Origin: Desulfonatronum lacustre DSM 10312
Lineage (GTDB): Bacteria; Desulfobacterota; Desulfovibrionia; Desulfovibrionales; Desulfonatronaceae
Direction of reading: 5' to 3'
Assembly: GCF_000519265.1 (NCBI RefSeq)
Contig: NZ_KI912608.1
Location: 2,575,313-2,639,312, forward strand
Length of the DNA: 64,000 nt
Below the pieces are notes generated by a model, which saw only the letters and a program-made list of their open reading frames with translations, made no database searches and was not told the origin of the DNA. Below, piece after piece: positions 48,807 through 64,000 of the stretch (position 1 is the first letter of the stretch; the number at the start of each line of letters is the position of its first letter). Position numbers and translations under genes: made by a program.

Positions 48807-48980
48807 TCCTTCAGCGAAGTTGGACATGATGGAAACCGATGCCCGTCGGATTTGGTCGCGCAGACCGAAGTCACGGGCAAACGGTCCGTCATTGGTCAAT
48901 GCATAGATTTCCTTGATTCGTTCTCGGGCCTTTCGCCAAGCTTCAATTTCCTCGAATCGCTGAACGCGCTCATTTCGCAA
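48807..48980 (-). pseudogene. Truncated four-helix-bundle (23S rRNA intervening-sequence type) protein gene
   Basis: The first 58 codons match the S23/four-helix-bundle family: [20 protein letters not shown], then [20 protein letters not shown] and NFAEG. Family members are about 120 residues; here the frame continues into unrelated sequence after NFAEG, so about half is lost. It begins within the last bases of the AlbA gene, same strand. Confidence 0.7.
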
Positions 48981-50481
48981 GCTTCTCTAGCAATTTCGTT
49001 CCTCTTGCCGTCAGCCGGTATTTCTGATTTTTACTCCGGGGTACATCCGGCAGAGTTTTTTCTAAAAAGTTCAGTGATTCCTCAAGGCGCAGCATCGCCT
49101 TTTTAAAATGGCCGGTCCTGCTCGTATACCCCAGGGTATTCAACAATTCCGGAGTGCCTTGGGGTGTGCTTCTGCAGGCATTCAGAATGGCCAATTCTGT
49201 TTCTGACAAGTCATGGGCCTCATCATGGGCCTCATCATGGGCCTCATCATGGGCCTTGACTTGCCGGGTTGATTGTTGGGCTCCTGGTACTTTCTTCTCG
49301 CTGAATTCTGGCACCTTGATAATCATCCTGAAGACATCTCCCTCCACCAGTTCGGGATCAGCACCACCGTAAGTCCTGCTGTACTTCATCATCTTGCGCA
49401 TGCCGGAGCCCAGCTCATCAGCCCGGCCAATCTGGCGGAAAAACCGGGCAATTACCGGATTTTTCGGAAAAGGGGTGAAGTTTTCAGGGTCCAGACGGCC
49501 AAAGCCGTGGGGGCGGTTGCTGTTTTCGGTGCGGACCTGGCCGTACTCGATGATCAGCTTGGCGGGGAAGGCGTTGGTGTATTCCCGGTGAATCAGGATG
49601 TTTGATGCCACCTCCCGGAAGATGGCATCTCTGATGCTGATGCTGGTCGTGCCTTCCAGATAAAAAGGATCAGACAGGTGCTTGTGGATAAAGGCCATGA
49701 TCCGCTCGTAACTCTCCACCAGATTGACATCCACGAAATCCCGGTCGTCGTAGCGGTCGAGATTGACCTTGCGCAGAATCAGGTCGGTGCGGTGGTGCGG
49801 CACGGCCTGCAATAACGGCAGCTGCTTTCCCAGAAGCAAGATACCGGCGCGGGTGACGCCGCTCTTCCCGCTTTCGGGATCGGCCTGGTATAGCTGGGCG
49901 CTTTGCAACAGTTCCAGATCGTCCAGGTCCTTCCATGGATGATCTTCCCAACGCAGGGTGGCGATCTTGCGGCATTTGGCTATCAGGTCGCGATCCAGGT
50001 CATCAAGACCAAGATGGGGAAACACCTTGTTCTCGCTGTAGGTGACCTGCTTGCGCTGGTAAAGCTGTGCCACCTGGGCGGTGTGATCGGTGATATCCAG
50101 ATCGCCGTCTTCGTTGCGGTCGTAAATGCGACCATTGCAGCGATGCACCTGCGAGCTTTCCGGCACATAGACGCGGAGCAGTGGTTTGCCGTCAATCGTG
50201 ACTTCATCGACCGCCAGATAGGTGGGCGGGGATATTTTCTGGGGATTGTTGATGGCCGTGACAAAGTCTTTCCGGATTTGCGCCGCCGTATCCGACTCGA
50301 TGCCTTGAATAGCCCCGTTATCCTGAACACCGAGAAGCAAGGTGCCGCCATGCCGGTTCAAAAAGGCGCAAACCGTTTCGTAGACATCCCGGTTGAGCTG
50401 GTTTCGGCAGGTTTTAAATTCAAGATCGATTCCTTCACCCTTGCGGATCAGTTCTCTTATCTGCTGTTCGGTGACATCCAT
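48970..50481 (-). CDS. AlbA_2 (Schlafen-type) ATP-binding transcriptional regulator/helicase-like protein
   Basis: A 503-residue protein of the COG2865 type. The N-terminal AlbA_2 domain has [20 protein letters not shown] and [15 protein letters not shown]. The middle HATPase-like part has [14 protein letters not shown] and [10 protein letters not shown] winged-helix C-terminus follows ([20 protein letters not shown]). Between them is a tandem AHDE repeat encoded by identical 12-base units. Such proteins occur in accessory or defence islands; the role here is unknown. Confidence 0.82.
49213..49258 (-). repeat. In-frame 12-bp tandem repeat inside the AlbA gene
   Basis: The unit CATCATGGGCCT is repeated nearly four times without change, giving AHDE repeats in the protein. 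Unit length is a multiple of three, so copy changes would alter linker length but not the frame. Confidence 0.9.
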
Positions 50482-51032: not shown

Positions 51033-51458
51033 ATGGCAAAGGTTTTGATCGCGGATGACGATCTCTTTTACCGGGAAATCATCTCTCGGTGCATCCAGTC
51101 CATGGGCCATGAATTGTATAGCGTCCGGGACGGTCGGGAGGCCTTGCGGCTTTTGACCAGGGAGCCGTTTGATCTGCTGATTCTGGACGTGTTCATGGAC
51201 AAGATGAGCGGCCTGGATCTGCTCCTGGGATTGACCAACATTTCCGAGACCTCCGGCGCGTCACGCATTCCAACCATCATCGTGACCAGCGACGATTCGA
51301 AAGACACGGAACAGCAGGCTCGGGAGGCCAAAGCGACCTTTTTCCTGCTCAAGCCCTTTCACCCTGACACCCTGGCCACGGTGGTCGAGCAAGCCTTGCG
51401 CTCGAGCAACGCGCCGCGAGCTTCCATGCGGTCCACGGCTTCCGTTGCCGTCGGCTGA
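51033..51458 (+). CDS. CheY-like single-domain response regulator
   Basis: A 141-residue receiver with acidic pocket IADDD, phospho-acceptor in [12 protein letters not shown], switch Thr/Ser in IIVTSDD and Lys in LLKPFHP. No output domain. First gene of the chemosensory operon, preceded by AAGGAGACAGGC. Probably a target of one of the nearby CheA kinases. Confidence 0.9.
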
Positions 51459-51538: not shown

Positions 51539-53485
51539 ATGGCAAAACTGGCAGCCCCCCCGACCATGTCCCGGCAAAGGGAGTACATCCCCACGGAATC
51601 CGACCGAACGGCCAATGAACTCGCCGAAAAACGGCGCATCGCCAAGGAGCGGGCCGCCCAGCGCGCGACCGGCCGCACCGTGGCCAAGCGTCAGCAGGCC
51701 GCGGAGCGGATTGCTTCGGCCACGGAGGAATTAGCCAGCGGGATCGCCCAGGCCAATGCCGCGGCCGAGCAGATGAACAAGGCCATGGAGCAGATTTCCT
51801 CCGGGGCCACCGAGGCCAGCGCCGCGGCGCAGGAATCCCAGGCCGCGGCCGAACAACTGAACAAGGGCGCGCAAGTGGCCAGCAACACGGCCCAGTCGGC
51901 CATGGAAAAGACCGATACATTGCAGGAACTGGTCCGCCTGACCTCCTCGGACATCGAATCCATCATCACCAACGTCGGCCTGTCCGCGGAACGGAACATG
52001 GAGTCGGCCAGGATGATCTCCGAACTGGAGCGCCAGGCGGATGAAATCGGCCAGGTGGTCAGGACCGTGGCCGGGATTGCGGACCAGACCAACCTTTTGG
52101 CCCTGAACGCGGCCATTGAGGCGGCCCGAGCCGGAGAACACGGACGAGGGTTCGCCGTGGTCGCGGACGAAGTCCGCAATCTGGCCGAGGGCGCGGAAAA
52201 ATCGGCCCGATCCATCCGGGAGCTGATCACCGATATCCAGAAAGAAGTGAAGGTGGTGGCCAAGGATGTGCAAGAAGCCGGGGTGACGGGCAAGGACGAG
52301 GTGGAAAAGGGCCGGGCCATCAACCAGCAGTTGCTGCGGATCGACAAAGAAATGCAGACCCTGAGCGGGGGCTGTTCGAGCATCAACGATTTGAGCACCA
52401 GCATCGCCGCGGCCATTGTCCAGTTTCTGAAGGGCGTGGAGATCATCGCCGCCGCGGCCGAGGAGTCGGCCAGCGCCGCGGCCGAGGCGTCGTCCTCCAC
52501 CGCCGAGCAGATGAAGGCCATGAAGGACATCGAGATGGCCACCGAGGAATTGGCCCAGATGGCCGAAGACCTGAAGGTGAACACGGATTCGGAGAAGTCC
52601 AGCGAGCAGCTTGCGTCGACGGCCGAGCAGCTTTCCGCGACCATTTCCCAGGCCAACGCCGCTTCCCAACAAATCATGAGCGCCATCCGCCAGATCGCCA
52701 AGGGCGCGGAACAACAGGGTTCGGCCACCGAGGAATCCGCCGCGGCCATCAACCAGGTCAACAAGCAGAGCCAGGATATCGCGACCAAGGCCGCCGATGC
52801 CCTGGAACAGGTGAACAGCATGGTCCAGCTCCTGGAAGCCAACAAGGAAGCCGTGGACAAACTGATCGTCGGAATCAGCGAAAGCGCCAAGGCCAGCGCC
52901 ACATCGGCCCAGAACGTGAAGAACCTGGAAACGCGGGTCCGTCAGATCGACAAAATCGTGGACGCCATTACCAGCGTGGCCATGCAGACGAACATGCTGG
53001 CCGTGAACGGGGCCATTGAGGCGGCCCGGGCCGGGGAATACGGCAAGGGCTTCGCCGTGGTGGCCTCGGACATCCGGACCCTGGCCAATGATTCGGAACA
53101 GAACGCCGAAAAGATCAAGGATCTGGTGCGCGGCATCCAGGATCAGGTTCTGGTGGTGTCCCGGGACATCCTGGACGTGGGCGCCCTGGCCGAACGGGAA
53201 ATGCTCAATGCCAAGAAATCCAACGCGGACCTGCAGCGCATTGAAAAGGATATCTCGGAGGTTCATTCCGGGATCCAGAACATCCAGCGCAGCGCCGAAG
53301 AATCCGCCGTGGCCGTGGAACAGGCCCAGAAGGGCGTGGAACAGATCGCCTCCGCGGCCCAACAGTCTTCCAGCGCGGCCCAACAGGCCTCGGCCAGCGC
53401 CACCCAGCAGGCCAAGGGAATGCAGGAACTCAGCCAGGCCATTGAGGACATCTCGGCTCTCGCGGACGAACTGCAGACGGCCTAA
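51539..53485 (+). CDS. Soluble methyl-accepting chemotaxis protein with two signalling tips (DosM-like)
   Basis: A 648-residue, Ala/Glu/Gln-rich coiled-coil receptor with no membrane segment and no evident ligand-binding domain. It has two complete MCP hairpin tips: [20 protein letters not shown] near residue 192 and [20 protein letters not shown] near residue 490. Each is followed by the conserved [14 protein letters not shown] or [14 protein letters not shown]. Each is flanked by heptad arms with methylation-type Gln/Glu pairs. There is no C-terminal CheR-tethering pentapeptide. Double-tip receptors are known as DosM in Vibrio cholerae, where they stabilise cytoplasmic arrays. Shine-Dalgarno TTTGGAG precedes the ATG. 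Confidence 0.9.
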
Positions 53486-53511: not shown

Positions 53512-55242
53512 ATGAGTACGGAAAATAGAAACATGGAATCCAGCGACGGGCAATTGGTGACCTTTTCCTTATCAGGTGAAGAGTTGGCCTTTCCCATCAG
53601 CCTGGTCCAGGAGATCGTCCGCCCGCCGGTGATGACCAGGGTGCCCAACGCCCCGGCCTACATGGAGGGCATCGCCAACCTGCGGGGCAACATCCTGCCC
53701 GTGATCAATCTGCGCGAACGCCTGGGGCTGGCCTTCCGGGAAGCCGACGACGCCACCCGCGTGGTGGTCCTGGACTGCGGCGGCACGTCCACGGGGGTGA
53801 TCGTGGACGCCGTTTCCGAAGTCCTGCACATCGACGACGAGATCATTGAACAGCCGCCGTCCATCGTGGCCGGGATCGAGGGGCAGTATCTGCGGGGGGT
53901 GGCCAAGATCGGACAGGACAAGCGGCTGGTGATGATTCTGAACGCGGAAATGCTCATTCCCCACGCCAAGGGACTCAAAGCGGCCCTGGCCGGCGCGGAA
54001 CGGACCCGGAGCACGCTCTTCGAAACCAAGGCGCTGGAGGAAGAGGAACTGCTCGTCACCTTCAAGCTGGTCGACGAGGAGTTCGCCATCGACATCATGC
54101 AGGTTCAGGAGATCATCCGGATCACGGAGATCACCAGCGTGCCCAAGGCGCCGCACTTCGTGAAGGGCGTGATGTCCCTGCGCAACCGCCTGCTGCCCAT
54201 CGTGGACCTGCGGGCCCGGTTCGGCATGGCCGCGGAACAGGAAACCGCGGTCGAAACCGGGGATGACGACGACATCGACGCCCGGCGCATCGTGGTCCTG
54301 GATCTGCAAGGAGTGCTGACCGGCGTGCAGGTGGACTCGGTTTCCGAGGTCCTGCGCCTGCCCAAGTCCAGCATCGAGCAGCCGCCGTCGATCATCGAAG
54401 CCGAAGACGCTTCACGATTGAAGGGGGTGGGCAAGCTGAACAAGGGCGAACGGCTGCTGATGCTCCTGGACGCGGAGCGCCTGCTTTCGGACAAGGAGCG
54501 CAAGGAAGTCGCCGCCGCGGCCGGATGCGCGGCCCGCGAAACCCGCAAGGCCGCGACCCAGGAGAGCGAGGATGAAACCCAACTGGTCTGCTTCAAGGTG
54601 GCCCAGGAAGAGTACGGCATCCACATCATGCGCGTTCAGGAGATCATCCGGATCGAGGAGATCACCAGCGTGCCCAAGGCCCCGGCCTTCGTGGAGGGCA
54701 TCGTCAATCTGCGGGGCAACGTCCTGCCGGTGATCGACATGCGCACCCGGTTCGGCCTGGCCCGTGATGAACGTACGGAACAGAACCGGATCGTGGTGGT
54801 CAACATCCAGGGCAAGACCACGGGGATTATCGTGGATTCCGTATCCGAGGTGCTGCGTATGGTCCGCACGCACATCGAACCGCCGCCCATGGTTTTGTCC
54901 GTTGAGACGGACCGGCGGTTCATCGAAGGGCTGGGCAAGCTGGACAACGGCAAGCGGATCATCATCCTGCTCAACGTGGACGCCATCCTCTCGGACCGGG
55001 AGGAGCGCGAGCTGCGCGGCATGACCGAAGAGCAGGGAATCGCGGCCAGCGAGGAAACGTCTCGGGAAGCGGAAGTCCTGGAGGACCGCGGGATCGAGGT
55101 CGTTGATGACGATGAGCCGGAGGAATCCGGAGAAACGATGGAAGAAGAGCCTCTTGAGGAAGAGGGTGCGGAGTCCTCACGGACGACGTCGCCCCAGGAC
55201 GGGGCACGAACCAGGAAGGTTCGGACCCCGAAAAAAGCATGA
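53512..55242 (+). CDS. Triple-CheW coupling protein
   Basis: A 576-residue protein with three tandem CheW domains, at about 14-160, 180-335 and 360-505. Each has the LVTF/LVCF strand, the EIIR segment and the VPNAPxYMEG or VPKAPxFVxG loop followed by LR..LP..D.R.RFG. Domains 2 and 3 share a long near-identical DNA stretch, pointing to recent duplication. A 70-residue acidic tail ends in a short basic stretch. CheW domains link receptors to CheA, so a triple unit could bridge several receptor tips or rings. Confidence 0.92.
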   Translation: MSTENRNMESSDGQLVTFSLSGEELAFPISLVQEIVRPPVMTRVPNAPAYMEGIANLRGNILPVINLRERLGLAFREADDATRVVVLDCGGTSTGVIVDAVSEVLHIDDEIIEQPPSIVAGIEGQYLRGVAKIGQDKRLVMILNAEMLIPHAKGLKAALAGAERTRSTLFETKALEEEELLVTFKLVDEEFAIDIMQVQEIIRITEITSVPKAPHFVKGVMSLRNRLLPIVDLRARFGMAAEQETAVETGDDDDIDARRIVVLDLQGVLTGVQVDSVSEVLRLPKSSIEQPPSIIEAEDASRLKGVGKLNKGERLLMLLDAERLLSDKERKEVAAAAGCAARETRKAATQESEDETQLVCFKVAQEEYGIHIMRVQEIIRIEEITSVPKAPAFVEGIVNLRGNVLPVIDMRTRFGLARDERTEQNRIVVVNIQGKTTGIIVDSVSEVLRMVRTHIEPPPMVLSVETDRRFIEGLGKLDNGKRIIILLNVDAILSDREERELRGMTEEQGIAASEETSREAEVLEDRGIEVVDDDEPEESGETMEEEPLEEEGAESSRTTSPQDGARTRKVRTPKKA

Positions 55243-55263
55243 CCCAGGGGGTTGCGGTCTCTC

Positions 55264-55291
55264 GCCGAGGCGGCGCATGGGCCGCCTCGGC
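55264..55291 (+). other. Perfect hairpin between the triple-CheW and cheD genes
   Basis: GCCGAGGCGGC (55264-55274) pairs with GCCGCCTCGGC (55281-55291) around GCATGG. It lies just before the cheD Shine-Dalgarno and has no T-run. It may tune expression or RNA stability at this point in the operon. Confidence 0.5.
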
Positions 55292-55310
55292 GGAAGAGAG
55301 AGGAGCGCCA

Positions 55311-55811
55311 GTGCCGACGTATAAAGAAGTCGAGGTCAAAACAGGGGAATTTCGGGTGGCCCGGGGCAACGGTCGATTGCTTACCCGGGGCGTGGGCTCC
55401 TGCGTCGTGGTCTGCGTTTGGGATCATGCCCGAACCATGGGTGGAATGGCCCATATTCCCATGCCCAGTTCCGTCGCGGGAACCCGGGATGAAGCGCTTC
55501 GCGCACCAGGACTGTTCGCGGACACGGCTCTGCCTGAGTTGATCCGATTGATGGAACGCGAGGGTGCGTGTCGGCCAAACCTCTCCGTCCGCCTCATCGG
55601 AGCAGGGAATATGTTCGCCGACGGCCAAGGCGACTTCATGAACGCCATCCCTCGCGACCTGCTGCACGGCGCGACCCAGGTGGTTCAGGCTTTGGGGCTG
55701 CACGTCGCGGCCCAATCCGTGGGCGGCGCGTTCGGACGCAGCGTCAGTTTCAACGTGCGCAGCGGCTTGATCAATATCAATCTGACCAATGGCGACGTTG
55801 TCGCCTTGTAG
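55311..55811 (+). CDS. cheD: Chemoreceptor glutamine deamidase CheD
   Basis: CheD deamidates glutamines on receptors and often binds CheC or CheY. The 166-residue product has GSCVVVCVWDHARTMGGMAH, containing the catalytic Cys and His of CheD, and LIGAGNMFA and GGAFGRSVSFNVRSG. I prefer the GTG at 55311-55313, which has GAGAGGAG upstream. An ATG overlapping the triple-CheW stop (55239) would add 24 unconserved residues. Confidence 0.88.
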   Translation: MPTYKEVEVKTGEFRVARGNGRLLTRGVGSCVVVCVWDHARTMGGMAHIPMPSSVAGTRDEALRAPGLFADTALPELIRLMEREGACRPNLSVRLIGAGNMFADGQGDFMNAIPRDLLHGATQVVQALGLHVAAQSVGGAFGRSVSFNVRSGLININLTNGDVVAL

Positions 55812-55829: not shown

Positions 55830-56927
55830 ATGAAAAAAATCACCGTGCTGATCGCCGACGACTCGGCCCTGATGCGCCGGGAAATCAAGAAAATCCTGGA
55901 AAGCGCCGGGGACATCGAGGTGGTGGCCGCGGCCCGGGACGGACGGGAAGCCGTGGACAAGACCAAGGAAACCGACCCGGACGTGGTGGCCCTGGACATC
56001 AACATGCCGGTGATGGATGGGCTGACCGCCCTGCAGTACATCATGATGGAATCTCCCAGACCCGTGGTCATGGTCAGTTCCCTGACCCAGGAAGGTGCCC
56101 TGACCACCTACGAAGCCCTGGAACTGGGGGCCGTGGATTTCGTGGCCAAGCCCGGCGGAACCATCTCCCGGAACATCAGCCAGGTGGGCGACGACCTGAT
56201 CGCCACGATCCGAGCCGCGGCCAAGGCCAACCGATCCAGGCTGGGCCTGGATCGCCGCCGCAAGAAAGCGACCCAGACTCCAACCCAGAGAACCGCGACC
56301 ATGGTGGGACGCAAATCCGGCCCGGCCGGATCAAGGCCGGGAGAGAAAATCGTGGTCATCGGCCTGTCAACGGGCGGCCCCAAGACGATCATGGACATCC
56401 TGCCCTATCTGTCGGAGGACCTGGGCGTGCCGGTGGTGATCATCCAACACATGCCCGGCCACTTCACCCCCTCCTTTGCCCAGCGCCTGAACGACAACTG
56501 CCTTTTGTCCATCAAGGAAGCGGACCATGCGGACGTGATCGAGTCCGGGCGGGGCTATCTGGCGCCCGGAGACAAGCACATGACCCTGGCCCCCCGGGGG
56601 GCCGGCAAGCCCGGCTACCTCATCCGCCTTTCCGATTATCCCATGGACACCCTGCACAAGCCGTCCGTGGACGTGACCATGTTTTCAATCCTGGAGTGCT
56701 ACGGGGGGCCCAATGTGATCGGCGTGTTGATGACCGGGATGGGCGCGGACGGGGCCAAAGCCATGGCCGCCATTCGCCAGGCCGGCGGCCGGACCATCGC
56801 CGAATCCGAGGAAACCGCGGTGGTCTACGGCATGCCCGCGGAAGCCGCCCGCCTGGGCGGCGCGGAATTCATCCTGCCCTCGTACAGCGTGGCGGAAATA
56901 ATCGTGAAGCTGGTCAAGGGCGGATGA
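55830..56927 (+). CDS. cheB: Chemotaxis protein-glutamate methylesterase CheB
   Basis: A 365-residue response regulator with enzymatic output. The receiver has ADDSALMRR and LDINMPVMDG. The methylesterase domain has the catalytic LSTGGPKTIMDIL serine, IQHMPGHFTPSFAQRLN histidine and MTGMGADGAKAM aspartate. It removes methyl groups from receptors and opposes CheR. The linker between domains is Lys/Arg-rich. Confidence 0.95.
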   Translation: MKKITVLIADDSALMRREIKKILESAGDIEVVAAARDGREAVDKTKETDPDVVALDINMPVMDGLTALQYIMMESPRPVVMVSSLTQEGALTTYEALELGAVDFVAKPGGTISRNISQVGDDLIATIRAAAKANRSRLGLDRRRKKATQTPTQRTATMVGRKSGPAGSRPGEKIVVIGLSTGGPKTIMDILPYLSEDLGVPVVIIQHMPGHFTPSFAQRLNDNCLLSIKEADHADVIESGRGYLAPGDKHMTLAPRGAGKPGYLIRLSDYPMDTLHKPSVDVTMFSILECYGGPNVIGVLMTGMGADGAKAMAAIRQAGGRTIAESEETAVVYGMPAEAARLGGAEFILPSYSVAEIIVKLVKGG

Positions 56928-56998: not shown

Positions 56999-57661
56999 AT
57001 GGACCAACAAGACCAACTCATCGCGGCATTGCAAGACCAGGACGAAACCGAACGGCGTTACGCGGCCGAAGACCTGGGCCTGCTCGGCGACCGGCGTGCC
57101 GTCCCGGCCCTGATCGCGGCTCTGGACGACCCGGTCATCGCCGTGCGCGAGGCCGCGGCGGACGCCCTGGCCGCCATCGGCGGCGGCGAAACCGCGGAAC
57201 AGGTTGCGGGCCTGTTGGCCTCGGAAGACGTGGTCCTGCGCAACCTGGCCCCGGAGATCCTCAAATCCCTGGGCCAGGACGCCATTCCCGTCTTGAAGGG
57301 GTGCTGCGCCTCGTCTTCCCCGGACATCAGAAAGTTCTCCGCGGACATTTTGGGCAAAATCGGCGAGATTACGACGATCAACGCCACGCCCCTGCTGATC
57401 GGCCTGCTGGACGATCCCGACGCCAACGTGGCCGGAGCGGCCGCCGAAGCCCTGGGCCGACTGGGCGATCGGACAATCATGCCGGAGCTGCTGGCCCGCA
57501 TGAACCGGGAGGCCTGGGTGCAATGCAACATTCTGGACGCCATGGCCCGCATCCCCGGCGAAGAGACCCTCGCGGCCCTGAACGCCATGGATGTTGAGGA
57601 CTTCGCCCCGAACGTGCTGTTTTATCACCGCAAGGCCGTGCAACAGCTTGCGAGAATTTAA
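56999..57661 (+). CDS. HEAT-repeat protein in the chemosensory operon
   Basis: A 220-residue all-helical protein made of about six HEAT repeats, each with an AxxALGxLG-type turn: ALDDPVIAVREAAADALAAI, LGQDAIPVL, ADILGKIGEI and AAEALGRLGDRTIMPEL. HEAT repeats bind partner proteins; its partner is probably another operon product. ATG at 56999, following the CTGA repeats. Confidence 0.85.
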   Translation: MDQQDQLIAALQDQDETERRYAAEDLGLLGDRRAVPALIAALDDPVIAVREAAADALAAIGGGETAEQVAGLLASEDVVLRNLAPEILKSLGQDAIPVLKGCCASSSPDIRKFSADILGKIGEITTINATPLLIGLLDDPDANVAGAAAEALGRLGDRTIMPELLARMNREAWVQCNILDAMARIPGEETLAALNAMDVEDFAPNVLFYHRKAVQQLARI

Positions 57662-57671
57662 GGATGCGCTC

Positions 57672-58538
57672 ATGTCCGAACTGATTTCCAACGCCGATCT
57701 GGAGCGAATCCGCGCCCTGCTGTACAAGGAAACGGGCATCTATTTCGAGGCCAAGAAGGACTATTTTCTGAAGAGCAGGTTGCAGCAACGGATGCAGGCC
57801 CAGTGCTGCGCCACCTTTCAGAATTATTACAAAGAACTGCTGTTCACGGACCGGGAAGCGGAACTGGCCTTTCTGATCGAAGAAGTGACCGTCAATGAAA
57901 CGTATCTGTTTCGTGACTTTCCCCAACTGCGTGGTTTTGCCGAAGACGTCCTGCCGTCCTATCTCCAGGCAAAGCGCACGAAAGGGAACTACAGCCTGAA
58001 CGTCTGGTCCGCGGCCTGTTCCACCGGTGAAGAGCCGTATACCCTGGCCATCATCCTGCGGGAAATGATCGACGACTATGACCGCTGGAACACCAATATC
58101 CTGGCCACGGACATCGATCGCAGGGTGCTCCGCCAGGCCCGGATCGGCCTGTACGACGAACGGGCGATCAAGGAAACGCCCACTCCCTACAAGCAGAAAT
58201 ACTTCCGACGGACCCCGGACGGCTGGCAGGTCAAACCGGACATCCAGGAACCCGTGGCGTTTGAACAGCTCAACCTGATGGACCGCCCGGGCATGCGCCG
58301 CAAGCGGGCATTTGATTTCATTTTTTGCCGCAACGTCCTGATCTATTTTAGCGACGATTCCCGCAAACAGGTTCTTTCTGCCCTGTACGACGCCCTGGTG
58401 CCCGGAGGATACGTTTTTCTGGGCCATTCCGAGTCCGTGGGCCGGATTACGGCGTCGTTCACTCTGGAACGGATCGGCGACTTCCTGTGCTACAAAAAAC
58501 CGGGCGCAGTCCTCCCGCGCCCAGGGAGCCCATCATGA
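57672..58538 (+). CDS. cheR: Chemotaxis protein methyltransferase CheR
   Basis: A 288-residue SAM-dependent glutamate methyltransferase. The N-terminal CheR domain has NETYLFRD, and the SAM domain has WSAACSTGEEPYTLAI, the canonical CheR motif, then ILATDIDRRVL and FIFCRNVLIYF. It methylates the receptors that CheB demethylates. ATG 57672 has AAGGA upstream. Confidence 0.95.
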   Translation: MSELISNADLERIRALLYKETGIYFEAKKDYFLKSRLQQRMQAQCCATFQNYYKELLFTDREAELAFLIEEVTVNETYLFRDFPQLRGFAEDVLPSYLQAKRTKGNYSLNVWSAACSTGEEPYTLAIILREMIDDYDRWNTNILATDIDRRVLRQARIGLYDERAIKETPTPYKQKYFRRTPDGWQVKPDIQEPVAFEQLNLMDRPGMRRKRAFDFIFCRNVLIYFSDDSRKQVLSALYDALVPGGYVFLGHSESVGRITASFTLERIGDFLCYKKPGAVLPRPGSPS

Positions 58539-58900
58539 AACCCAAAATCCTGATCGTCGACGATTCCAACATCGTCCTGAACATGCACGCCTATATCCTG
58601 GAAGGCTCGGGATACAGCTGCGCCATGGCTGAAAACGGATATGTCGCCCTGGAACTGCTGTTCCGGGAACCATTCCAGCTCATCGTCACGGACGTGAACA
58701 TGCCCAAGATGGACGGCTACGAGCTGACCCGCCGTATCCGGTCCAGCGAACAGTATCGGGACACTCCGGTGATCATGATCTCCACGGAACGGGAGGCCGC
58801 GGACAAGATCAGGGGCATGGAAGCCGGAGCCAACGTCTACATGGTCAAGCCGACCCAGCCAGAGGCCCTGGTGACCAAGGTCAACATGTTGCTGGCGTAA
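58535..58900 (+). CDS. CheY-like response regulator
   Basis: A 121-residue receiver with IVDDSNIVLNM, phospho-acceptor in LIVTDVNMPKMDG, and VKPTQPEALV. It starts with an ATGA overlap on cheR and ends 13 bases before cheA. Confidence 0.93.
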   Translation: MKPKILIVDDSNIVLNMHAYILEGSGYSCAMAENGYVALELLFREPFQLIVTDVNMPKMDGYELTRRIRSSEQYRDTPVIMISTEREAADKIRGMEAGANVYMVKPTQPEALVTKVNMLLA

Positions 58901-58913
58901 TCAGGAGAAAGAC

Positions 58914-61061
58914 GTGGCCGCTTCACGCACGATGGAACCTTTGAACGCTTCGCCGCACGACACCGTGACCGGTCGCGACGATATGGAGTTGCGCCTGTTG
59001 CGGGATTTCCAACTTGAAGCGTCGGAAAACCTGGACGAAGCCGAGCAGGCCCTGCTGGCCATCGACCAGAACAGCGGCGATCGGAAGGCTCTGGAGGAAT
59101 TGTGCCGACGCATCCACTCCATCAAGGGTACGGCATCCTATGTCGGACTGCACGCCATTTCCGACCTGGCCCATGCCCTGGAAGCCATCCTGGAAACCAC
59201 GAAGCACCAGGCCGGGTTCAGCATGCCGGGGTCCCTGCTGGACGCCTGCTTTGAGACCGTGGACGCCCTGCGCCGGATGGTCGACCAGCCGGAGGATCAT
59301 CAGCCGCCGCAAAGCGTGCTGCGCCGCCTGGAGGAGGAACGGACGGCTCTGGGCCTGACATCGGGCGCCACCGCCCCCGCGCCTTTGGCCGCGGTGGATC
59401 CGACGTCCATTTTTATCGATTCGGCCGGTCAGCATGTGGAGAGCATGCGGGTCTGTCTGGAACGGATGAACACGGGGCAGGGCGAGGACAAAACCACCTT
59501 GGATATGTTTTTTCGTGCCGCCCATTCCTTGAAAAGCAGCGCCTGCTACATGGGGTTTAAAGATATCGAGGTGAACGCCGAGCGGATTGAAAATGTTCTG
59601 TGCGCCGTGCGCCAGGGCGAAATAGTCTGTTCCGAGCCGCTGTTGAACGTCTTGGCCGAACATCTGGCCGGGGTGACGCTGCATTTCGGACAAGTAGTGC
59701 GCGAATCCGGGGAGAACTCGAAACAAAACACCGTCATGTCTCCCGCCGGTTCGGATTTTGCCGCGCCGAACTCGACGACGTCCTCTTTTGCCGTTGCAGG
59801 TGCGTCCATGCCGGACGGGGGCGGGCCCACCCCGGGCCGGACCATGCGCATTGATCAGAACCTGTTGGACGGGTTCATGAATCTGGTGGGCGAACTGATC
59901 GTGGCCCGCAACGTCCTGGGCCACGTCCAAAAGCGGCTGGACCGCGAGGCCGATGCCTCCCTGCCCGGGCTGCGCGAACTGCGGGGGGCCTGCCAACTGG
60001 TCTCCCGGATTTCCGACGCCATGCAGCGCAACATCATGGCCTTGCGCATGGTTCCGGTCAAAACCGTGTTCCAGAAGCTGCCCCGGATTATCCGGGACGT
60101 CACCCAAAAGAACGGCAAAAAGATCGACCTGGTTCTGCACGGCGAGGAAACGGAAATCGACAAGGGCATTGCCGAGGAGATCAGCGATCCATTGGTGCAC
60201 ATCATTCGCAACGCCGCTGACCATGGGATTGAACTTCCGGATCTGCGTCGGGAACGAGGCAAGCCCGAACGCGGGACCGTGGCCATCAAGGCCGGTCAAG
60301 AGGGCAACAGCTTCGTGATCGAAATTCTGGACGACGGTGCGGGCATCGACACGGACCTGGTTCTGGAGAAGGCTCTGGAACGGGGCCTGATTCAGCCGGA
60401 CCAGGCCGACCGGATCAGCCGGGAGGAAATCATCCAGCTCATTTTTGCACCGGGATTCAGCACGGCTCGCGAGGTGTCCTCCATTTCCGGCCGGGGCGTG
60501 GGCATGGACGTGGTGCTGACCAACATCCGCAAGGTCAAGGGAGCGGTGAAGATCGACTCCCAGCAGGGTCAGGGAACCCGGATCCGGCTGGAACTGCCTC
60601 TGACCCTGGCCGTGGTGGAAACCTTGCTGGTCGGGGTGGGTCGGGAGACCTTCGCCATTCCGGTTGAAGCGGTCCGCGAAACCGTCAAGTTGAAGCGCTC
60701 CGCGATCAAGTCGATGATGAAACGGCGGGCCATGACTTTGCGTGGAGAGGTGATCGGCCTGGAAACCCTGGCTGAAATCCTGGGCATGAACAGAGACCAC
60801 GGGCTGCCCCGGATGGTGGACGCCGCACGTGACGAGGACGACGACATTCCGGTGCTGATCCTCCAGAACGGCGACGAGCTGCTCGGCGTGGCCGTGGACA
60901 AGCTGCAGCGTCAGGAAGAAATCGTGATCAAGCCCCTGGTCGGTTATCTGGCCGATCTGCCCGGCTTGGCCGGAGCCTCGATCCTGGGGGATGGACGCGC
61001 CTTGTTGGTCTTGGACCCCTTGGAATTGATGCAGGCAGCCTCGCGAGGAGTGCTGCCATGA
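58914..61061 (+). CDS. cheA: Chemotaxis histidine kinase CheA with two Hpt domains
   Basis: A 715-residue kinase. Hpt1 has HSIKGTASYVG with His68; a second Hpt has HSLKSSACYMG with His204, where the usual Gly is Ser. No recognisable P2 CheY-docking domain lies between it and the dimerisation domain. The catalytic part has VHIIRNAADHGIELP, DDGAGID, FAPGFSTA and GRGVGMDVV, and a CheW-like domain ends it (AVVETLLVGVGRETFAIP). GTG start with AGGAG at 7 bases. Confidence 0.93.
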   Translation: MAASRTMEPLNASPHDTVTGRDDMELRLLRDFQLEASENLDEAEQALLAIDQNSGDRKALEELCRRIHSIKGTASYVGLHAISDLAHALEAILETTKHQAGFSMPGSLLDACFETVDALRRMVDQPEDHQPPQSVLRRLEEERTALGLTSGATAPAPLAAVDPTSIFIDSAGQHVESMRVCLERMNTGQGEDKTTLDMFFRAAHSLKSSACYMGFKDIEVNAERIENVLCAVRQGEIVCSEPLLNVLAEHLAGVTLHFGQVVRESGENSKQNTVMSPAGSDFAAPNSTTSSFAVAGASMPDGGGPTPGRTMRIDQNLLDGFMNLVGELIVARNVLGHVQKRLDREADASLPGLRELRGACQLVSRISDAMQRNIMALRMVPVKTVFQKLPRIIRDVTQKNGKKIDLVLHGEETEIDKGIAEEISDPLVHIIRNAADHGIELPDLRRERGKPERGTVAIKAGQEGNSFVIEILDDGAGIDTDLVLEKALERGLIQPDQADRISREEIIQLIFAPGFSTAREVSSISGRGVGMDVVLTNIRKVKGAVKIDSQQGQGTRIRLELPLTLAVVETLLVGVGRETFAIPVEAVRETVKLKRSAIKSMMKRRAMTLRGEVIGLETLAEILGMNRDHGLPRMVDAARDEDDDIPVLILQNGDELLGVAVDKLQRQEEIVIKPLVGYLADLPGLAGASILGDGRALLVLDPLELMQAASRGVLP

Positions 61062-62125
61062 CCACGGCCATGACCACGACTGCCCGACAATCCGATGATC
61101 GGTCCCACTGCGTCGCTCAGAACTCCGAAAACCAGGGTCGGCTGTTGTGTTTTCTCGCCGCGGGACGGGAATATGCCGTGGCCATGGAGCACGTCCAGCG
61201 GATCATTTCCCGCAAACCCTTGATCACTCCGCCGGACACGGTCCCCGGACTGCTCGGCCTGACCTCGCACCAGGACCAAAGCCTTGCGGTATTCGAGTTG
61301 GACGGGCTGCTGGGCCGGTCCGCGGCCGACGCCGCGCCTTCTCCGGGCGACCCTCAAGACTGGCGCTACATCCTGATTCTGGAGCACGGTGCGACCCGCC
61401 TGGGTCTGGCCATCCACGCCCCCCGGGACATCCTTGCCGCGGAAGCCGCCGCGCTCAGCCAGACCGAGGACGACGCGGATGAATCTGAAATCGCCGGCGT
61501 GCTGCGTCTGGATAACGGCCGGCGCATCGTCTTCGTGCTGCGCCTCTCCCGCCTTGTGGGCCACGATGCCCGGAACCACGCGGATTTTGCGGCCCAGGCC
61601 GCGGGGTCCGGCGAGTATTCCCCGGACCGCGCATCGGAGTGCGGCCCCAAGACCGAAGACCCGTCCGATGACCGCCGTCATGTCTGCTTCGAGCTGGCCG
61701 GCACCCTGTTCGCCGCACCCATGAACAGGGTCCGCGAGGTGACCCGCCTCGGCCAGATCACGCCTGTGCCCCAGGCCCGCCCGTATTACGCCGGTCTGAT
61801 CAACCTGCGCGGGGAGATCATGCCCGCCCTGGATCTGCGTTTGCGCTTGGGCCTGCCCCAAGCCCAGGCCACGGAGGAGACCCGGATTCTCGTGGTGGGA
61901 GGACGGAACAAGCATGGTCTGATCGTCGATCGGATCGCCGATCCCGTGGATCTGGACCAGACCGCCCTGGAGCCCTTGCCCGATGCCTGTCGCGACAATC
62001 CGGCCAAAGGCTTCGTCCATGCCGTGGCCAAGTTGAATCAACGGAACCGCGCGGATCATTTGAATCAGGGCAAGCCGATCCTGCTTCTGGATCTGGACGC
62101 GGTGACGCGGAAGACGGATGAATGA
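61058..62125 (+). CDS. Double-CheW coupling protein
   Basis: A 355-residue protein with two CheW-like domains. The N-terminal one (about 25-175) is divergent: LLCFLAAGREYAVAMEHVQR and TPPDTVPGLLGLT lack the usual LRG. The C-terminal one (about 205-345) is typical, with VCFELAGTLFAAPMNRVREV and YAGLINLRGEIMPALDLRLR. It begins with an ATGA overlap on cheA, so it is co-translated with the kinase it probably couples. Confidence 0.87.
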   Translation: MTTAMTTTARQSDDRSHCVAQNSENQGRLLCFLAAGREYAVAMEHVQRIISRKPLITPPDTVPGLLGLTSHQDQSLAVFELDGLLGRSAADAAPSPGDPQDWRYILILEHGATRLGLAIHAPRDILAAEAAALSQTEDDADESEIAGVLRLDNGRRIVFVLRLSRLVGHDARNHADFAAQAAGSGEYSPDRASECGPKTEDPSDDRRHVCFELAGTLFAAPMNRVREVTRLGQITPVPQARPYYAGLINLRGEIMPALDLRLRLGLPQAQATEETRILVVGGRNKHGLIVDRIADPVDLDQTALEPLPDACRDNPAKGFVHAVAKLNQRNRADHLNQGKPILLLDLDAVTRKTDE

Positions 62126-62200
62126 AGTACAAAGCGGCGGATGGCGTGCCGGAAATCAGCGCTGAAGACCGGCCCGCCCCCCGATAAACCCGAGGAAGCC

Positions 62201-62545
62201 ATGCGAATAGATACGGACGCCGGAACCTTGCGTGTTGTTTTGCCGGAAGATTGCCTGATTTTCGAAGTCGAAGCGCATGCCCAATTGTTGGCCGAGGCCC
62301 AATGGGACGCCGCGAGCATCAATCAGGTGGTCGTGGACCTGGGCGCGGTTCAGTCCATGGACACGGCGTATTATCAATTGGTGCTGTGCATCGAACGGAC
62401 GGCCCGGGACATGAACGTCCCCTGTTTGCTGGAGAATGTCGGCCCGGCCTTCCGGGAACTCCAGGAGTTGTACGGCCTGCGGTTGTCCGTGGACCAGGAC
62501 CAAGCCGACGGCCCCAATCTTCAAGAGCAAGGAGAACACCCATGA
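62201..62545 (+). CDS. STAS-domain protein
   Basis: A 114-residue protein with the STAS fold: VVVDLGAVQSMDTAYYQLVL corresponds to the segment that in anti-sigma antagonists carries a phosphorylated Ser, here apparently Asp-Thr. A Cys follows in NVPCLLENVG. ATG 62201 has GAGGAAG upstream. It overlaps the next cheY by ATGA, so it is part of the chemosensory operon. Confidence 0.8.
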   Translation: MRIDTDAGTLRVVLPEDCLIFEVEAHAQLLAEAQWDAASINQVVVDLGAVQSMDTAYYQLVLCIERTARDMNVPCLLENVGPAFRELQELYGLRLSVDQDQADGPNLQEQGEHP

Positions 62546-62907
62546 AATCTGTTTTGATCGTTGATGACGCGGTTTCCATGCGCGGGCTGGTAGCCATGAC
62601 CCTGCGCGGAGCCGGATACGAGGTTGCTGAGGCTTCGGACGGCAAGGAGGCCCTGAATGTTCTCGGCGGCGGCAAGAAGTTCGACATGATCCTGACCGAC
62701 CTGAACATGCCCAACATGGACGGCATCAGCCTGATCAAGGCCGTCAAGGCCATGCCCAAGCATAAGTTTTTGCCCATCGTGATGCTGACCACGGAGAGCG
62801 AGGACGGCAAGAAGCAGGAAGGCCAACAAGCTGGGGCCAAGGCCTGGATCGTCAAGCCCTTCAAGCCGGACACCCTGCTGGCCGTTGTCAAAAAAATTAT
62901 TGGCTGA
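62542..62907 (+). CDS. cheY: CheY-like response regulator
   Basis: A 121-residue classical CheY: IVDDAVSMRGLVAMTLRGAG, ILTDLNMPNMDGISLI, VMLTTES and KAWIVKPFKPDTLL. It is the last gene of the operon before the repeat region, and the best match of the three receivers to a motility-type CheY. Confidence 0.93.
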   Translation: MKSVLIVDDAVSMRGLVAMTLRGAGYEVAEASDGKEALNVLGGGKKFDMILTDLNMPNMDGISLIKAVKAMPKHKFLPIVMLTTESEDGKKQEGQQAGAKAWIVKPFKPDTLLAVVKKIIG

Positions 62908-63057: not shown

Positions 63058-63162
63058 CATGCACTGCTTCGCCTTAAATTGAACGTAAACCGGACTGAAT
63101 CAATGGGACGTGCCCCGAGCACCCCCTCGAACACCCTCGAACCCTCGCACCCGGACCCTGCC

Positions 63163-64000
63163 ATGGACAATAAGAAAGACCATTACCGCCAGCAGTTTAT
63201 CATCGAGGTGGGCGACATCCTGGACACGGTCACGGAAAGCCTGCTCAAGGCCGAAGCTGATCCCGCGAATCTGGAATTGTTGCACTCCATCTTCCGTGGC
63301 GTGCACACCATCAAGGGCAGTTCGGCGATGTTCGACATGGACGAACTGGGCGCTTTCGCCCACCACCTGGAAGGGGTACTCAACGGCCTGCGTGGGAAAA
63401 GCATGGTTCTGACCGGTGAGCTGGTTGATCTGCTGTTCCAGGGACTGGATACCCTGCGGGAAATCATGGCCGCGACACTGCGCGGCGAAGCCGTCATCCC
63501 GCCGGATGACTTGGTCCGGCGCTACGCGGAGCTGATTCAGGCCGCCGGCGGCAAAACCGTTCAGCACGATCAATACGCCGCCACCAGCGAGGCAGCGGTG
63601 GTCCCGCCGCGGCTGCCCCTGGACGAGGTGAACGGCCGGGCGCTCTGGAGTTCCTTCAACGATCCGGACCACCCCCAGCGCCATGTCTATTATATCGAGC
63701 CCATGTTCGACTCGGAGCATCTGGCCAACGGCTTTGATCCTCTGGTCTTTCTGCGCAACCTCAAAGAAAACTGCTCCTTTTATCTGGCGGATTGCCGCTG
63801 TCTGATTCCGGGGATCCGGGAATACCGACCACTGGATATCTATCTGCGGGCCACCCTGATCGTGATCACGGACCTCTCTGCGGCGGAAATCCGGGACCTG
63901 GCTTATGACCCGGAGCTGATCCACGTCACGGAACTGGAACCGGACGAGAGTCAGGACAGGACCACCCGGCCCGAGGTATCGCCCACCTGGAAGCCGTTGG
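63163..64000 (+). CDS. cheA: Second CheA-type histidine kinase (N-terminal part, runs off the window)
   Basis: The frame is open from the ATG at 63163 to the window end (about 279 residues). An Hpt domain has HTIKGSSAMFDMDELGAFAH with the phosphorylatable His. A following region (about 170-260) reads FDPLVFLRNLKENC and LDIYLRATLIVIT, typical of the P2-like domain found in such kinases. An in-frame ATG at 63103 would add a repeat-derived sequence and is less likely. This opens another chemosensory locus or continues the present one. Confidence 0.85.
   Translation, partial: MDNKKDHYRQQFIIEVGDILDTVTESLLKAEADPANLELLHSIFRGVHTIKGSSAMFDMDELGAFAHHLEGVLNGLRGKSMVLTGELVDLLFQGLDTLREIMAATLRGEAVIPPDDLVRRYAELIQAAGGKTVQHDQYAATSEAAVVPPRLPLDEVNGRALWSSFNDPDHPQRHVYYIEPMFDSEHLANGFDPLVFLRNLKENCSFYLADCRCLIPGIREYRPLDIYLRATLIVITDLSAAEIRDLAYDPELIHVTELEPDESQDRTTRPEVSPTWKPL

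Follow-up and report, generated by a model that had tools for sequence, protein, structure and literature searches.

A DosM chemoreceptor and its F9 chemosensory operon in Desulfonatronum lacustre

The open reading frame at 51539-53485 (+) of the window, by which we mean the whole 64,000-nt stretch analyzed here, encodes DosM, a fresh example of a known protein, and its operon belongs to the F9 chemosensory class. By analogy with Vibrio cholerae, DosM of an F9 system would very probably act as a passive strut, its two hairpins standing tail to tail and joining two baseplates, with input arriving from other receptors. F9 systems are widespread, yet little is known of what they do or of their output, and a clear DosM with its F9 operon is here added for a Desulfobacterota genome.

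Results

The dosM frame runs for 648 amino acids without an internal stop, and MCPsignal is the sole Pfam family in it (4.5e-67); no sensory domain was recognized there by Pfam. A whole-genome profile search returned two separate MCPsignal stretches in this single frame, both above the cut-off, i.e., the tandem signalling domains, two in one chain, by which DosM is recognized. The N-tip (residues 180-216, 52076-52186, +) opens at residue 180 with a 26-residue stretch of the canonical MCP signalling type, invariant in the alignment and supported by column frequencies; the C-tip (residues 480-516, 52976-53086, +) opens with a 26-residue stretch at residue 480 and is DosM-specific (TNMLAVNG), as judged from column frequencies and from the clade that the C-halves form. 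Hydropathy averaged over 19 residues peaks at 1.8, at residue 289 within a hairpin arm, which, taken with the coiled-coil hairpins of the structural model, points to a protein without a membrane helix. The earlier note, working from the letters alone, had read two full MCP tips about 300 residues apart in one chain with no membrane helix and no ligand domain, and Pfam, hydropathy, the model and the profile search of the tips that it proposed all bear this out. Its assignment to DosM was right and is firmer than it claimed, because the adjoining gene is the F9-specific triple CheW.

The F9 class is defined by DosM together with the triple CheW, CheW3 (PMC9321776), of which VC1403/VC1402 of V. 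cholerae are the type pair (PMC7534058). Both hallmarks lie side by side here, and the cluster also holds cheB, cheR, cheY and cheA. The operon genes inside the window are all on the plus strand. A single-domain, CheY-like response regulator (51033-51458; Response_reg 5.8e-22) precedes dosM, as it does in the related locus of Deltaproteobacteria bacterium AUK324. Behind dosM come cheW3, with three CheW domains in one chain (53512-55242; CheW 1.2e-113, three stretches and three separate hits), cheD (55239-55811; 1.7e-16), cheB with receiver and methylesterase (55830-56927), a HEAT-repeat protein that recurs in F9 operons (56999-57661), cheR (57672-58538, start taken at MSELISNADL), cheY (58535-58900) and a cheA with two Hpt domains (58914-61061), all by Pfam, with operon comparison added for the HEAT-repeat gene. 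The order goes on with cheW2, carrying two CheW domains (61058-62125, Pfam), a STAS-domain protein (62141-62545; STAS_2 1.9e-08), an open reading frame for a second CheY (CheYb, 62541-62907, 70% identical to its counterpart in locus L133) and the start of a second cheA (63079-64000, Pfam) that continues past the window (L001:1392-3632). The genes beyond it encode a single-tip membrane receptor, an RsbW-like ATPase and a further receiver. Most F9 operons examined have one CheA, which is closer to the in-window enzyme at 58914-61061, and lack both the second CheA and the double CheW found here; the nearer counterparts of the second CheA are in L132 and L133, of which L132 shares the two-CheA arrangement. 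On the minus strand of the window, at 48970-50481, we also noticed a predicted protein of 503 amino acids with an in-frame run of AHDE repeats (16 residues).

An AlphaFold2 model of DosM, built as a monomer from an input of 15 window and locus sequences, is helical over residues 23-647 save for a break at 348-350 (52580-52588, +), with mean pLDDT 89 and pTM 0.63. It predicts two stacked helical hairpins with one tip each, as the check proposed in the earlier note anticipated: an N-terminal hairpin at residues 23-347 (51605-52579, +) and a C-terminal hairpin at residues 351-647 (52589-53479, +). Their relative placement is uncertain because the model is a monomer with this pTM. Model confidence drops near residues 200, 350 and 500, which are the two tips and the break; within the break, T349 and D350 do not vary among 15 homologues. 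Foldseek matched the model to solved receptor hairpins, among them 2ch7, which was matched to the N-terminal hairpin (TM 0.87 on the target and rmsd 2.6 over 298 columns). The hairpin arms in the model measure about 149-154 residues, or 21-22 heptads per arm. For the F9 class, a 44H receptor signalling domain is given in the literature (PMC9321776).

The distance between the tips is exactly 300 residues in all 80 loci in which both were located, the window's own included; a further 16 loci, with a fragmentary gene or a tip motif that could not be located, were left out of this count. Of 77 extracted cores, 75 are full length (599 residues) and aligned without gaps and two stop early; the cores were selected for the 300-residue spacing, so that gaplessness between the tips is partly built in, and the count of 80 loci is the independent statement. 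Such constancy fits what a spacer of set length would need. An α-helix rises about 0.15 nm per residue, and 300 residues of straight helix were calculated to span about 44-45 nm. This figure disagrees with the roughly 35 nm between the baseplates of the V. cholerae F9 array (PMC3964821).

Since the two halves of DosM are clearly related, they could in principle be separate receptor genes fused by an assembly join or a frameshift, an explanation that the earlier note had itself raised. The chance of this is vanishingly small, and we regard it as ruled out: the gene is one open frame within a one-contig genome (3.76 Mb, completeness 99.7%), homologues in independent assemblies are collinear with it over about 600 residues at 40-66% identity and are of the same length, and no gap interrupts the core alignment. 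A second possibility is a single working tip, with the other left as a relic. The C-tip does vary more than the N-tip (mean column entropy 0.52 vs 0.29 bits), but both are conserved far above the arms, and M486, L487, A488, V489, G491, E494, R497, G499 and E500 of the C-tip are invariant in 15 homologues, which makes a relic tip very improbable.

The two tips differ consistently. Column frequencies in the cores give an N-tip consensus of 20 letters and a C-tip consensus of ten letters, then S or A, then 13 more. In a tree that combines 26 N-halves and 26 C-halves with 18 receptors encoded in the same genome, the C-halves form one clade (100/99) and the DosM halves stand apart from the other receptors (95/87); the tree has some long branches, and its bootstrap values had not converged. 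Because the C-halves form one clade, the asymmetry is old and family-wide, with tips already distinct before DosM spread among phyla, and it tells little about particular partners in this operon. The earlier note had suggested that the tips may engage different CheA/CheW partners; this loses its force, as single-CheA operons show the asymmetry too and the two baseplates that V. cholerae DosM connects are built from one CheA and one CheW3 (PMC7534058). The two CheA proteins of the present operon are likewise ruled out as the cause of the asymmetry, given the asymmetric tips of one-CheA operons.

To place the operon among its relatives, we scanned a species-genome collection with the C-half alignment; at least 578 stretches encode a relative, and the best 80, which were kept, come from Pseudomonadota, Bacillota, Actinomycetota, Acidobacteriota and others. 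In nearly all kept loci with enough flank, DosM is followed by CheW3 and CheB, and most go on with CheR, CheY and CheA. Within its own phylum a DosM match was found in 13 of 297 sampled genomes; a near-full-length homologue was present in two of 60 relatives, and none was found in the seven genomes of the same genus among those 60. We thus have no Desulfobacterota-specific operon, a candidate ruled out by the same gene order in other phyla and by the 13/297, and the label "Desulfobacterota-type" in the earlier note does not hold. The sporadic distribution of DosM and F9 is consistent with the horizontal spread reported for the class (PMC9321776).

Among the matches listed, the closest homologue is that of AUK324 (L046), with a DosM 66% identical to ours; it shares the order response regulator-DosM-CheW3-CheD-CheB-HEAT, CheD adjoining CheW3 being common to the two operons, although its contig stops before CheR and its CheB is split over two frames. 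Desulfosporosinus hippei (L047), Thiobaca trueperi (L070) and Desulfovibrio sp. DV (L071) have a DosM with the 300-residue spacing, CheW3, CheB, HEAT, CheR, CheY and CheA; unlike the operon described here, they have a single full-length CheA in the stretch read and no CheD match between CheW3 and CheB.

A membrane receptor ends many F9 operons. Here it lies 3′ of the second CheA and just past the window (L001:3619-5088, genome 2640618-2642087). These terminal receptors, those of the F9 operons in L053-L137 among them, have one MCP tip and then, about 80 residues from the C-terminus, the motif [LIM]QFQD[IV]xRQ (LQFEDIIKQ here). In 18 divergent terminal receptors that were aligned, only Q, D and Q of a QxxDxxxQ motif and the last F are invariant. 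The pattern D[IVM]xxQ, which contains the DxxxQ of the CheZ active site, occurs near the end in 47 of 49 terminal receptors, and a C-terminal [IVF][ET][LMF]F in 44 of 49 (conserved as IELF, VTFF here); the 49 include one or two that are possibly not true members. An hhalign comparison with the CheZ active site FQDLTGQ gave a probability of 70-73 (P about 3e-5), where the six segments used as controls reached 0-0.4, and the distance from the motif D to the C-terminus, mostly 72-83 residues, overlaps that in CheZ (60-83). The strict motif was absent from 17 other receptors of this genome that were examined. The Pfam CheZ profile scored below its cut-off on the terminal receptor (13.7 vs 30.7 bits), and because of this score we take the CheZ-like site as a lead and not as CheZ membership. 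When the alignment of terminal receptors was run against PDB profiles, mostly coiled coils of viral fusion proteins came back, which was uninformative; a search of the literature for receptors with a CheZ-like motif gave nothing relevant, and neither this site in F9 receptors nor the invariant 300-residue spacing was found stated in the F9 literature cited here. The F9 terminal receptor is possibly a receptor-like CheY phosphatase; if the site is that of a true phosphatase, it gives F9 a route for signal termination.

A separate locus of the genome was noticed as well. A soluble protein of 656 amino acids beside a CheA (L002:3858-5828, minus strand, genome 1689857-1691827) combines a pair of degenerate MCP-like tips with a DxxxQ motif (FHDITRQ), and VELF is repeated along its tail, which ends in DNVELF; it is present in 44 of 120 relatives and has a weak Pfam CheZ match (19.7 bits).

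Discussion

We have proposed that DosM joins two baseplates as a strut, a reading that builds on tomography of V. cholerae (PMC7534058, PMC3964821). DosM of the F9 system (cluster I) of that species, VC1403, which we compared by its published description, is likewise soluble, with tandem signalling domains and no sensory domain, and its gene too adjoins that of a triple CheW, within a cluster that includes CheA (PMC7534058); CheD, the double CheW and the second CheA set the operon here apart from the V. cholerae system. In the proposed mechanism, two antiparallel helical hairpins, as predicted by the model, would be stacked tail to tail with an MCP tip ending each. Paired in a dimer, DosM would then make up a long rod, with a CheA/CheW3 baseplate receiving the tip at either end; as in V. 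cholerae, this rod would keep the two facing layers of a flat cytoplasmic array a fixed distance apart. Having no sensor of its own, DosM would presumably be fed by other receptors that share its trimers. The earlier note had found the input signal unexplained; this is usual for DosM, since 98% of published homologues are without a sensory domain and are seen as scaffolds (PMC9321776). Methylation-like windows recur in the family, and cheB, cheR and cheD are present in the operon; their products may act on such sites along the DosM arms.

The difference between the tips would permit a polar rod without proving one. In a functionally polar rod, the N-tip would mix with ordinary receptors and the C-tip would form different trimers or bind a different CheA/CheW, so that the two layers differ. 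We hold this to be possible but unlikely. In its favor, the asymmetry is fixed across phyla, with the C-half clade described above; the 20-letter N-tip core is the same as in most ordinary receptors of the genome; the operon has two CheA proteins and a double CheW; and the C-tip departs from the N-tip at hydrophobic columns (M, V, G) that would be trimer contacts by E. coli Tsr numbering. Against it, the assignment to contacts depends on the E. coli numbering, one-CheA operons show the same asymmetry, and V. cholerae DosM links the two baseplates in a system with one CheA and one CheW3 (PMC7534058). A broader scheme, in which DosM would be a polar strut of fixed length, the faces of the F9 array would consist of different trimers, and the membrane receptor of the operon would be a CheZ-type phosphatase docked in the array and not a sensor, is speculative, and we put it forward with considerable doubt. 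The passive strut remains the reading that we prefer.

Two near-identical receptors, each beside a CheW, were also seen elsewhere in the genome (1770781-1772149 and 152233-153489; L207 and L208); both end in EFEKF, a possible tether pentapeptide.
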